Positions 299 through 5,158 of a stretch of DNA of 5,158 nt are shown here, in pieces. The DNA is taken from positions 1 to 5,158 of the forward strand of contig JAMCTO010000031.1 in NCBI GenBank assembly GCA_023381095.1, in the 5' to 3' direction. The notes beneath the pieces were generated by a model, which was not told where the DNA came from, made no database searches, and saw nothing but the letters and a program-made list of their open reading frames with translations. The position numbers and the translations under genes are program-made. The stretch's first letter is position 1, and each line of letters starts with the position of its first letter. Source of the stretch: Bacillota bacterium. Its GTDB lineage: Bacteria > Bacillota > Sulfobacillia > Sulfobacillales > Sulfobacillaceae.

Positions 299-2415
299 GT
301 GGTTAAGTTACCGATCCGGACAGTCCGCGGGGTGGTGATCGGACTTCTCTCGGCAGGACTTATGTTAGAAATTCCCGGGGCGGGTGTAGGGTGGAGTAAA
401 GCTCATTCGAGTCTCTTTCTCTCATCGAAGATCGCCACGCAAAATCAAGAGACAAGATCGCCACGCAAAATCAAGAGACAACGTCTCCGAAAAGTCCGGG
501 AGCTTTGGCTGCCACTTCGAACACCTTGCCATATTTTCGCCATGTCTTTGTTATCATGCTCGAGAATCACAGCTATGCGGACACTTGGTATGAGCACGAC
601 ATGCCCTATTTGCATCAACTCGCCAGAACTTACGGTTTGCCCACGCAAATGTACGGCATCACCAATCCCACGGTACCCAATCGCGTAGGTCTCTTAAGCG
701 GTCGTGGGCGGAGCATTGGCGACAATGTGAAGGCCGGACAGTTGTCATACCCTAATCTCATTGATCAATTGCAACAACACCATTTGACATGGGGAGCTTA
801 CTATCAACATACGGAAACATCGTCGAATCAACATCCGGTGTATAACTTCAGTCAAAGCACTCTCCTGCGCTTCCAAGACATCTATGACAATTCGGCACGC
901 CGCGCCCGCTTATTGCCGTTGCCCGACTTGGAATCCGCTCTGAAGGACAATACGGTTCCCAATTTCGCGTGGATTGCTCCCAATTTTCTGACAAATTCCC
1001 ATGGGACGGCTCGCCCGGGACCTTATCAGTACACGTTTCAAGGAGCAGGGCCCGGGGGATCCGCGGGAAATGATACCCGTTTGGAAAATTTGGCGAATAC
1101 CTTCTTAAAACACTGGATTCCCCGGATTATCCATTCAAAGGCGTGGAAGTCCGGCCCCTCCGCCATTTTTATTACAGAAGATGAAACCAGTTACGATGCG
1201 AGTATGCCCCAGAACGGCAATTGGGCATCGAACTTAGGAACAACAGGCAGTCCATCCGTCGCAGCAGGCACCATTCTGGGAGGGAATCCGCGTTTTCCTT
1301 TCCCCGGAGGGATTAACGGGGGTGGAAGAATTCCCGCGGTAGTCCTGACCAATGTCGCCAAACATGTGGTTTCATCCCAGCCGTTTAATCAATTTTCTAT
1401 TCTCAAGACGATCGAAAGTGCTTGGCACCTGGGATATCTCGGCCACGCTGCGAATCCTCAAGTCAAGACAATGAGCGTGTTTTTTCACGGCGGTGGGAAA
1501 CCGGCAGGGCCGTCATCCACTCCCTGGTCGAGGCCCACCGCACCCGTTCCGACTACCCGCGATCAATGGACTGCAAACCCCGCTGTGCCTGCGTTGCCGC
1601 CGAAACAAACCTCTTCACCCGATGCGATTATTTTGCCGTCGGCCGATCCTCACATCAGTTTGGGGGCTTCGGGACAGGCGGCGGCCAGTCTTGCCGTCTT
1701 CGTTACCAACCATGCTTCCTCCCTGTCAAAAAATCTTAGCTTGAGGCTCACCCAATCTTCCGGCGTAACATTTTCTCGCCGATCCTCGCCTGTTGGCTCA
1801 ACCCAGGTTGCCAACGCCGATGAAACTGCTACACAGTTTGGGCCGAGTGTTGTTGGTTCCCACACGATAAGCTTGCCGATTGCGGGTAGTCGGAACGGGG
1901 TCGGTCAAGTTCCCGAAACCCTTGATATCACGGGTCTTTTATTGAATGCGGCACCCAATGCCGCAACAGGGCCGGTAAAAGTGAACGTATCGGCCGGATC
2001 CGTTCAGTTGGGCACAGTGGTTTTAGCAACCGTCGGTCGTCCCAAGCAAAGAACCCATCCCAATTTGTTGGCCCCGATCATCCGGCCGGGTACGATTCAG
2101 ATACGGTTTCAGACTCTCGGCTGCGAAACTCCCGGTTGTTCATCGGGACGGCAGTATGAAATTGAAATCACAGGGCAAAATCCCCAAACGGCCACTCACC
2201 CCAACATAAACGAGCACGCCATCCTTTACACCCATTCCCATTCCCTGATAATCACGGACTTTACCGCTGAACTGACTTCCTTGGCGGGAAAGTTGTACTG
2301 GGTGCGAGTGCGCAGTGTAGGGCATTCTTCGCAAAAATCTCCCGTCCACAGTGAGTGGAGCCTTCCTCTACCCTTTAGCGTATTGCCCGGTCCTCTCCCT
2401 TCGGGAGTATCTTGA
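299..2415 (+). pseudogene. Secreted phosphoesterase (PF04185-like), paralog 1, frameshifted by a 26-bp duplication
   Basis: If one copy of the 26-bp tandem repeat at 428-479 is removed, the gene encodes 696 residues. The N-terminus (MVKLPIRTVR, then a hydrophobic core to about residue 32) reads as a Sec signal peptide. The catalytic domain spans about residues 70-387, with the metal-site motif ENHSY (E80, N81), a likely nucleophile T116 in TNPTVPNR, and EDETSYD (D286, E287). A Pro/Ser/Thr-rich linker (about 388-434), a beta-rich domain ending near VGRP (about 576), and a fibronectin III-like C-terminus (YWVRVRSV, then SEWSLP) follow. The last domain has two cysteines (GCETPGC) absent from paralog 2. 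As written, translation from GTG 299 leaves the frame after the repeat and stops at 686-688 after 129 residues. The catalytic frame (505-2415) is intact but lacks the signal peptide. The family hydrolyses phosphate esters; the substrate here is unknown. It may be a pseudogene, phase-variable, or misassembled. Confidence 0.85.
428..479 (+). repeat. Perfect 26-bp tandem duplication causing a frameshift in paralog 1
   Basis: Two identical 26-bp units lie head to tail at 428-453 and 454-479, each starting AAGATCGCCACGC and ending CAAGAGAC; two further bases (480-481) also match. Since 26 is not a multiple of three, the signal-peptide frame and the catalytic frame are out of register. With one unit removed, the reading passes through IATQNQETTSPKSPGALAAT into LPYFRHVFVIMLENHSY without a stop. 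Confidence 0.97.
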
Positions 2416-2459
2416 ATATCCGAACTCGCCGAACACTAATCAAAAGAGAGAAAAAACAT

Positions 2460-2465
2460 AGGAGG
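2460..2465 (+). promoter_or_regulatory. AGGAGG ribosome binding site fixing the ATG 2475 start of paralog 2
   Basis: AGGAGG ends 9 nt before ATG 2475, a near-ideal arrangement. The same frame is open back to a TTG at 2412 that overlaps the stop of paralog 1, but that start would place the AGGAGG inside the coding region and add a highly basic, arginine/lysine-rich extension before the signal peptide. ATG 2475 is therefore preferred. Confidence 0.85.
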
Positions 2466-2474
2466 TTTTTGAGC

Positions 2475-4431
2475 ATGTCGGTACCCACCAAAGCGTTAAC
2501 AGCACTCATCGCGACATGCGGAATCGCAGGATTGCTCGGTTCGACACCGTCGGCATATGCAGCGTCCTTTAAAGGACATGCACCGAGAGTTCCGGATTTC
2601 CGCCATGTGTTCGTTATTGTGATGGAAAATCACAGCTATCATGATCTGATGGATGAGAATGACGTGCCATATCTTCATCACCTCGCCACTCATTACGGTC
2701 TAGCCACCAGTTATTACGGGGTGACAAATCCGAGTGTAGGAGACCGTGTGGCCCTTCTCAGCGGAGAAACCGCCGGAACCGAGCTTCCTCATAGCAAGAC
2801 TACGGGGCTGAGTCAAAAAAATCTGGTGGATCAATTGTCGGTTCACCATTTATCCTGGGGTGCATTCTATCAGCATTCCCGTCTGTCCTCCAGCCAAAAC
2901 CCCGTCTATCGATATAAGGAGGGTCACAGCACTTTTCTGCGCTTTCAAGATATCGCAAGCAATCCGAATCGCACCTCTCATCTTCATCCTCTGAGGGACT
3001 TGAGCACGGCTTTGAGTTCCAATACCGTGCCCAATTTTGTATGGATCTCGCCCAATAGTATCGGCAATATGGAAGGGGGATACCGTTCTCCCGGACAATT
3101 TACCTTTCAAGGCGCAGGACCGGGAGGATCGACAACAGCGGATTCCCAACTGGAACAAGGGGGAAACACTTTTCTCAAAACCTGGATTCCCAAAATTATG
3201 AATTCCAGGGCTTGGCATCAGGGACATAATGCCATATTTATTGCCTTTGACGAGACCAGCTACGATGCCAGCATGCCTCAAGACGGATATTGGCTGTCTC
3301 ATAAGGGTGTGACGGGAAGCCCCATCATCGCGGCCGGCGGGAAGCCCCATCATCGCGGCCGGGACCAATCTTTCCGGAAATTCGCATTTCTTGTTCCCCG
3401 GAGGCATGGATGGCGGAGGTCATACCTTGGCCATGGTGCTCACCAATCATGCACACCATGTTGTTTCATCCACTCCTTATAACGAATATTCGATTTTGAA
3501 AACGATTGAGGCCGGGTGGCATTTGGGTTATCTCCACCACACTGCCGCTCATGATGTGCATCCGATGTCCCAGTTTTTTGGCCCGCCGACCAAACCCTAT
3601 TCACTGCCATCTATGCGAGTAGATTCCTTAACCGGCTATAACGCTCGTTTGAAAACGACACCGACCTTATCCCCTGTGAGCACACCCGAGTTCCATTCCT
3701 CATCATCGGAAGCAGGAGTGTTAACGAGTACGAACCCCTATTTTGTGCGCGGCATTGCACATCAAGTGGGATCCACATTGATTATCCACGAATCCCGGCC
3801 AGGTGTGCTTAGCGGCTCCGTAAGCGTGAATTTGGCACCGTCGTCAGGCCGGAACATCAGTTTTTCTTCATCTTCACATCCGGTTGCCACCACGAAAATT
3901 TCCGATCCCAGTGCCCAAGGAGTCCAATTTGCATCCTCGTCCGTGACTTCAAGCACCGTGAAATTTCCCGTAGTCACACCAAGCCAACTTGCCTCCACTG
4001 CCATTATTACGGGACTGACATTAAATATTGGTTCTGGAGCACCGATCGGGCCCGTTACGGCCACGGTGAGTTCGCATGGGCAAATCTTGGGCACGGTAAA
4101 TATGGGAACGGTGGGGAAGCCCAGGCCCACTACCGTGCCTGAGATGATGGCTCCCGTGGCGTTAAGGCACCATATGGCCTTTCCCTTCATCCCTCCGATT
4201 GCGCCCAAGGGTCAACACCAGATAGTTTTACGCATTGAAGGCCAATATCCGACTTCCCAAGCGAATGATCCGAATCAGTACAGAACCTTTGCCAGTGCAA
4301 CGAATGTACCTGTCATTGCCGATTCTCGGGCTCTTTTAACGCCTCAAGCAGGTAAACAGTATTGGATTGAAGCGAAATCGCATCAAAACCGAACATGGTC
4401 GATGCCGGCCACCTTTAGTGTCAGTCGCTAA
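2475..4431 (+). pseudogene. Secreted phosphoesterase (PF04185-like), paralog 2, frameshifted by a 25-bp duplication
   Basis: With one copy of the 25-bp repeat at 3313-3362 removed, this gene encodes 643 residues. A clear signal peptide (MSVPTKALTALIATCGIAGL) ends at a likely AYA/A cleavage site near residue 29. The catalytic domain has ENHSY (E51, N52), likely nucleophile S87 in TNPSVGDR, and FDETSYD (D259, E260). It then continues through a GGMDGGG segment and YSILKTIEAGWHLGYL to about residue 358. A Ser/Thr-rich linker, a beta-rich domain ending at VGKP (about 541), and a fibronectin III-like end (KQYWIEAKSH, then TWSMPATFSV) follow. It aligns with paralog 1 along its length, so the pair arose by tandem duplication. 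As written, translation stops at 3482 after 335 residues, having lost the second half of the catalytic domain; the remainder is open from 3391 to 4431. It starts 59 nt after paralog 1 with no clear terminator between, so co-transcription is likely. Confidence 0.87.
3313..3362 (+). repeat. Perfect 25-bp tandem duplication causing a frameshift in paralog 2
   Basis: Two identical 25-bp units lie at 3313-3337 and 3338-3362, each starting CGGGAAGCCCCATC and ending GCGGCCGG, with mismatches immediately outside both ends. As 25 is not a multiple of three, the frame is lost. With one unit removed, the protein reads VTGSPIIAAGTNLSGN and then FPGGMDGGG, which matches TTGSPSVAAGTILGGN and FPGGINGGG of paralog 1 position for position. 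Confidence 0.97.
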
Positions 4432-4741: not shown

Positions 4742-5158
4742 ATGATGTCGGAAACAACCGGAGTGCGGGAGGAACGGTGGACACCGACCGACAGTTGGTC
4801 CTTTTGGGCCTTCGGCCTGGGAATGTTGTTGGAAGCCTACATTTTTGGGATGGCCGGCCCCTTGGCGGATCGGGTCGGCCGTAAGAACACCTTTTATATG
4901 ACGATGGCCCTCTATGGCTTAGGGGCCATCGGGATTGTCTTCAGTGGATCCTATGTGTTGATTCTCGTGTTTTTGGCCGTGCTCTTATTCGCCGCGGGCG
5001 GCGAAATGAACACCATTATGGCGGCGTCCCACGAGGTGATGCCCACCAAGCACCGGGGTAAAACCATGATGATGGAAATCAATTTCATTAACTTGGGGGG
5101 CTTTTTATTAGCCTTGGTGTCCTTATTGAGTGCCTATCATGCGGTGGCCTTTCAGCGC
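4742..5158 (+). CDS. MFS transporter, sugar-porter-like, 5' part only, apparently lacking TM2
   Basis: This is an inner-membrane transporter fragment of 139 codons, cut by the right edge of the window. Visible elements are a short polar N-terminus, one hydrophobic segment (W19-A38, containing GLGMLLEAYIFG), and the MFS motif A GPLADRVGRK at 39-48. Two further membrane segments follow (about 51-68 and 71-93), then HEVMPTKHRGK with the E-x-x-P-x-x-x-R-G signature (E98, P101, R105, G106) of the loop between TM4 and TM5 in sugar/metabolite porters, and a further segment to about 131. In the family, motif A sits between TM2 and TM3, usually some 50 residues after the middle of TM1. Here it follows TM1 directly, so about one loop and TM2 appear to be missing, in frame. 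The substrate cannot be told. It may be under its own promoter, as 310 nt separate it from paralog 2. Confidence 0.85.
   Translation, partial: MMSETTGVREERWTPTDSWSFWAFGLGMLLEAYIFGMAGPLADRVGRKNTFYMTMALYGLGAIGIVFSGSYVLILVFLAVLLFAAGGEMNTIMAASHEVMPTKHRGKTMMMEINFINLGGFLLALVSLLSAYHAVAFQR

Follow-up and report, generated by a model that had tools for sequence, protein, structure and literature searches.

The two short exact tandem duplications that split a pair of adjacent phosphoesterase genes in this draft genome are, all artefact routes taken together, very probably a product of how the sequence was made. The likely cause, whose exact step we infer, is that overlapping sequence ends were joined with the overlap kept twice, and the duplications are probably present in no cell. 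An artefact is the best explanation because the duplications fall without regard to frame or to how important the gene is, lack any sequence trigger, are peculiar to the draft and appear to lie in DNA of two lineages.

The window, the whole stretch of DNA analysed, is an entire contig (C31) of 5158 bp. It belongs to a draft of 1,706,012 bases in 326 contigs, which is 63.67% complete with 1.61% contamination. The contig contains two tandem PF04185 phosphoesterase genes, followed by the first part of an MFS transporter gene (Table 1). The downstream piece of gene 1 scores 80.8 bits for PF04185 and the upstream ORF of gene 2 (2412-3482) scores 60.8 bits, against a cut-off of 23; the downstream piece of gene 2, searched alone, gives no Pfam match. 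The two genes are paralogues, the gene-1 piece sharing 59% identity with gene 2 in the first part and 39% in the last part. Both carry PF04185 and are predicted to encode secreted phosphate-cleaving enzymes, and the N-terminus of gene 1, judged by eye, resembles a signal peptide. Against the NCBIfam model for phosphocholine-specific phospholipase C the score is 23.1 bits, far short of the 580 bits required. The listed gene 2 ORF opens at TTG 2412, overlapping the gene 1 stop; by eye, the ATG at 2475, downstream of an AGGAGG, is the likelier start. Among public proteins the upstream ORF of gene 2 has 119 matches, the top one with 62% identity across 83% of the query. None of the 119 is a close copy with a shifted tail, a result that says little as the search took only proteins up to 1.75 times the query length. 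A third related gene, on contig C231, had been flagged with three internal stops and was rejected as a further broken copy: its frame is open from 2073 to 3188 (372 aa), the match runs 45 bases beyond 3188 and the stops most likely lie past the end of the gene.

Table 1. Features of the window and the exact two-copy tandem duplications on other contigs of the draft.
Contig	Feature	Position	Strand	Remarks
Window	Gene 1, upstream piece	299..688	+	GTG start; true frame until the duplication, then out of frame until the stop at 688; from the ORF list
Window	26-bp exact two-copy tandem duplication	428..479	+	frame-breaking; missing in relative
Window	Gene 1, downstream piece	505..2415	+	636 aa from first listed start; PF04185 phosphoesterase
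Window	12-bp in-frame insertion	1885..1896	+	missing in relatives; from alignment
Window	Gene 2, upstream piece	2475..3482	+	PF04185; out of frame from the duplication until the stop at 3482
Window	25-bp exact two-copy tandem duplication	3313..3362	+	frame-breaking; missing in relative
Window	Gene 2, downstream piece	3391..4431	+	346 aa from first listed start
Window	MFS transporter gene, start	4742..5158	+	PF07690, 41.5 bits; runs off contig end; unsplit
C6	17-bp duplication			near 5' end of tyrS
C80	19-bp duplication			FAA hydrolase gene
C245	28-bp duplication			near 5' end of DNA methylase gene
C61	30-bp duplication			HtrA-like protease gene; in-frame, ORF stays open
C61	15-bp duplication			unnamed 203-aa ORF; in-frame, ORF stays open
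C61	35-bp duplication			rho

A preliminary description of this DNA had reported exact two-copy duplications of 26 and 25 bp that break the frame in adjacent paralogues, and both the coordinates and the frame switches are confirmed. At the first site the exact 26-nt copies occupy 428-453 and 454-479, with two more matching bases, to 481; at the second the exact 25-nt copies occupy 3313-3337 and 3338-3362, with no further matching base. The pair is beyond chance: two perfect tandem repeats with a period of 15-60 are present in the window and none in any of 200 first-order Markov simulations. When the intact proteins of the closest relative are aligned with the unaltered window, gene 1 changes from frame 2 to frame 1 at the first duplication and gene 2 from frame 3 to frame 1 at the second. 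Residues 1-67 of the relative's gene 1 protein correspond to window frame 2 and residues 55-703 to frame 1, as do residues 312-675 of its gene 2 protein. The copies are identical to each other at both sites, and no strain difference between them marks a join. A seeming cluster of substitutions at the duplications, 4 or 5 where 1.0 would be expected (P 0.02 or 0.004), came from a post hoc test and is not relied on.

The same alignments bear on decay. The relative's proteins reveal no other frame break in either gene, and pN/pS is below 1 in all five pieces: 0.37 upstream of the break in gene 1, 0.35 and 0.70 downstream of it, 0.00 upstream of the break in gene 2 and 0.33 downstream, on small counts of 2 to 23 substitutions per piece. 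In line with the earlier view that the clean frames argue against long-standing decay, such decay is not supported.

The closest relative of the window comes from another genus. This is contig C90 of G031 (JAKACM010000102.1, MAG WH4.bin11), which matches with 97% identity across 4854 bp; both genes are whole there and in the same order (692 and 664 aa), with neither the duplications nor the 12-bp insertion. A global alignment of the two contigs contains 78 substitutions, the two duplications, the 12-bp insertion and three single-base insertions outside genes; every indel consists of extra bases in the window. Orthologues of gene 1 at 65-97% identity in six relatives (G031, G027, G028, G001, G002, G003) are uninterrupted over 674-703 aa. 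Another six long matches fall at 47-50%; five are free of internal stops and the sixth, in G002, contains a single TAA.

Within the four genomes of the draft's own genus, gene 1 reaches 65-68% protein identity in three and 36% in the fourth. Five other contigs of the draft, the short ones compared by 0.7 kb pieces, are all nearest to that genus: C6 to G001 (97%), C11, C61 and C80 to G002 (94%, 90% and 85%) and C245 to G003 (82%). Four of these five carry duplications. Because the window matches a genome of another genus and these five contigs match the draft's genus, the window is probably a mis-binned contaminant; recent gene transfer is the alternative. If the contig is a contaminant, then the same duplications occur in the DNA of two organisms within one assembly, and one kind of fault would thus have affected two lineages in a single draft.

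The preliminary description had named a genome-wide scatter of such duplications at contig joins as the mark of an artefact, and duplications scattered among contigs are what was found. We fetched 114 of the 326 contigs (608,214 bases, of which 553,536 are readable; 20 contigs are wholly masked), and these contain eight exact two-copy tandem duplications of at least 15 bp in 554 kb of readable sequence, mostly in unrelated genes. The six outside the window are spread over four other contigs. Every one of the eight sits in an open frame that relatives share, and wherever a relative's alignment spans the site the duplication is absent there by exactly the unit length, with the gap sometimes split in two by the aligner. 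The spanning relatives number one at each window site, three for C6, two for C80, one for C245 (a second alignment stops short of the site) and two at each C61 site.

Neither reading frame nor gene seems to have constrained where these duplications lie. Six of the eight units have lengths not divisible by three, about the two thirds to be expected if there were no selection. The frame switches at all six of these sites: five switches were seen directly in alignments with relatives' proteins, and that in C245, where the aligner ran through in one frame, was shown by translating the pieces. The affected tyrS (TIGR00234, 336 bits against a cut-off of 114) is the single copy found in the draft, which is incomplete, and the names of both tyrS and rho were confirmed against NCBIfam. 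Loss of either gene would be expected to harm cells, as is well established for tyrS; rho is dispensable in some Firmicutes.

The boundaries of the eight duplications share 2, 0, 0, 2, 0, 1, 3 and 2 bp of microhomology, a sum of 10 against 5.3 by chance (P 0.07). Because this microhomology amounts to only 0-3 bp, slippage on flanking repeats is not indicated. The unit lengths span 15 to 35 bp, which bears out the earlier argument that unequal units count against a single fixed-k fault; a fixed k-mer length as cause is rejected. The duplications cluster: one contig has three and another has two (P 0.002 under even scatter over the readable contigs). Given the rate elsewhere, two in the window has P 0.0015, the window having been chosen for having them.

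Two of the other contigs show further irregularities. The rho gene of C61, the contig with three duplications, lacks 145 bp relative to G002 and G003 (L173 8628/8629), which is also where its matches to G004, G027 and G031 are interrupted. In C80, aligning a relative's protein with the FAA hydrolase gene reveals another change of frame (L079, about 5351-5363) besides that at the 19-bp duplication.

The window itself holds the 12-bp insertion, which is missing in all eight related loci compared. The inserted bases make 1878-1905 an inverted near-copy of 1537-1564 (28 nt, 89%, 18 identical bases), the partner stretch lying 313 nt away. It is a genuine template-switch mutation or else a chimera in inverted orientation.

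Relatives were searched as a control. In 37 of their loci (357,720 readable bases) there is one exact duplication of at least 15 bp, a 17-bp unit at a site spanned by no open frame above 80 codons. The rates, eight in 554 kb of the draft against one in 358 kb of the relatives, do not differ significantly (P 0.10). When copies of at least 90% identity are allowed, an earlier sample of the draft has six in 436 kb against two in 358 kb in the relatives. Since the difference in rate is not significant, the argument rests on where the duplications fall and not on their number. Among the ends of the 94 readable fetched contigs of the 326 (one end cut) there are no exact overlaps of at least 13 bp. 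This counts against joining with a retained overlap; it bears on joins not made rather than on joins made.

We propose that sequence ends sharing 15-35 bases were joined during assembly with the overlap retained twice. In both phosphoesterase genes the duplication shifts the reading frame, and the joins would have fallen regardless of gene or frame. The preliminary description had argued for a common cause of the two window duplications, which is supported in the form of an artefact; of the origins it listed, this one has gained and phase variation, long decay and a mutator strain have lost. With affected contigs from two genera, a mutator strain is unlikely. There is a second route to an artefact, in which contig joining plays no part: chimeric reads, formed by template switching during library preparation or amplification, would have become the consensus where contigs were thinly covered. 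Amplified DNA is known to show template switches of both the direct and the inverted kind. The inverted near-copy with its 18 identical bases 313 nt away, the 145-bp deletion in the rho gene of C61 and coverage near 3 in two of five related contigs would all suit such an origin. Against it, the boundary microhomology is near chance, priming chimeras usually showing more; we regard this route as rather unlikely.

An artefact has to be weighed against the point that a real duplication, if recent, would likewise be confined to one genome. Mutations that arose recently in the cells sampled, breaking both genes with no role in switching, would also leave identical copies and otherwise clean genes, as observed. 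Six more duplications elsewhere in the draft, two of them in tyrS and rho, the lack of bias against frame-breaking lengths and the occurrence in DNA of two genera nevertheless make this origin improbable. A phase-variable pair of secreted enzymes, switching by gain or loss of one repeat copy, was another option in the preliminary description. Exact frame-breaking duplications in two secreted-enzyme paralogues have the form that such a switch would take, and spontaneous sequence duplications provide a precedent in the pneumococcal capsule (PMC4022640). However, each site has two copies only, neither site is a repeat in the closest relative, microhomology at the window sites is 2 and 0 bp (0-3 bp over all eight), and the duplications are not confined to surface, secreted or contingency genes, with tyrS, rho and the FAA hydrolase gene also affected; tyrS, rho and others among the affected genes are improbable targets of a switch. 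This option is highly improbable. It is just as hard to credit that two related genera living together undergo frequent, microhomology-free tandem duplication of 15-35 bp in their living cells, some of which would at any given time carry reversibly broken genes, even tyrS and rho.

Known systems offer two comparisons. False duplications in vertebrate assemblies have been tied to heterozygosity, sequencing errors and incorrect gap filling (Genome Biol 2022, PMC9516828). As there, duplicated sequence made by assembly would change gene models in this draft; unlike there, where whole exons or genes of vertebrates are concerned, the units are 15-35 bp in a bacterial draft. Our literature search found no paper describing exactly this small-scale assembly error. 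In pneumococcus, phase variation of the capsule genes is under the control of sequence duplications that arise spontaneously (Waite et al. 2001, 2003, cited in PMC4022640), and there, as here, a tandem duplication within an ORF turns the gene off. Unlike that system, the present duplications affect unrelated genes, including tyrS and rho, in one draft with DNA of two genera, and each assembly presents one state. In form, then, the duplications resemble capsule phase variation, but those of its features that were tested are not seen here, and in cause they would seem to resemble false assembly duplications on a much smaller scale.

In a fragmentary draft, short exact tandem duplications that split genes should be checked against the rest of the assembly before phase variation or decay is read into them. 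In this draft, calls of pseudogenes are unreliable, and those for tyrS and rho are no exception.
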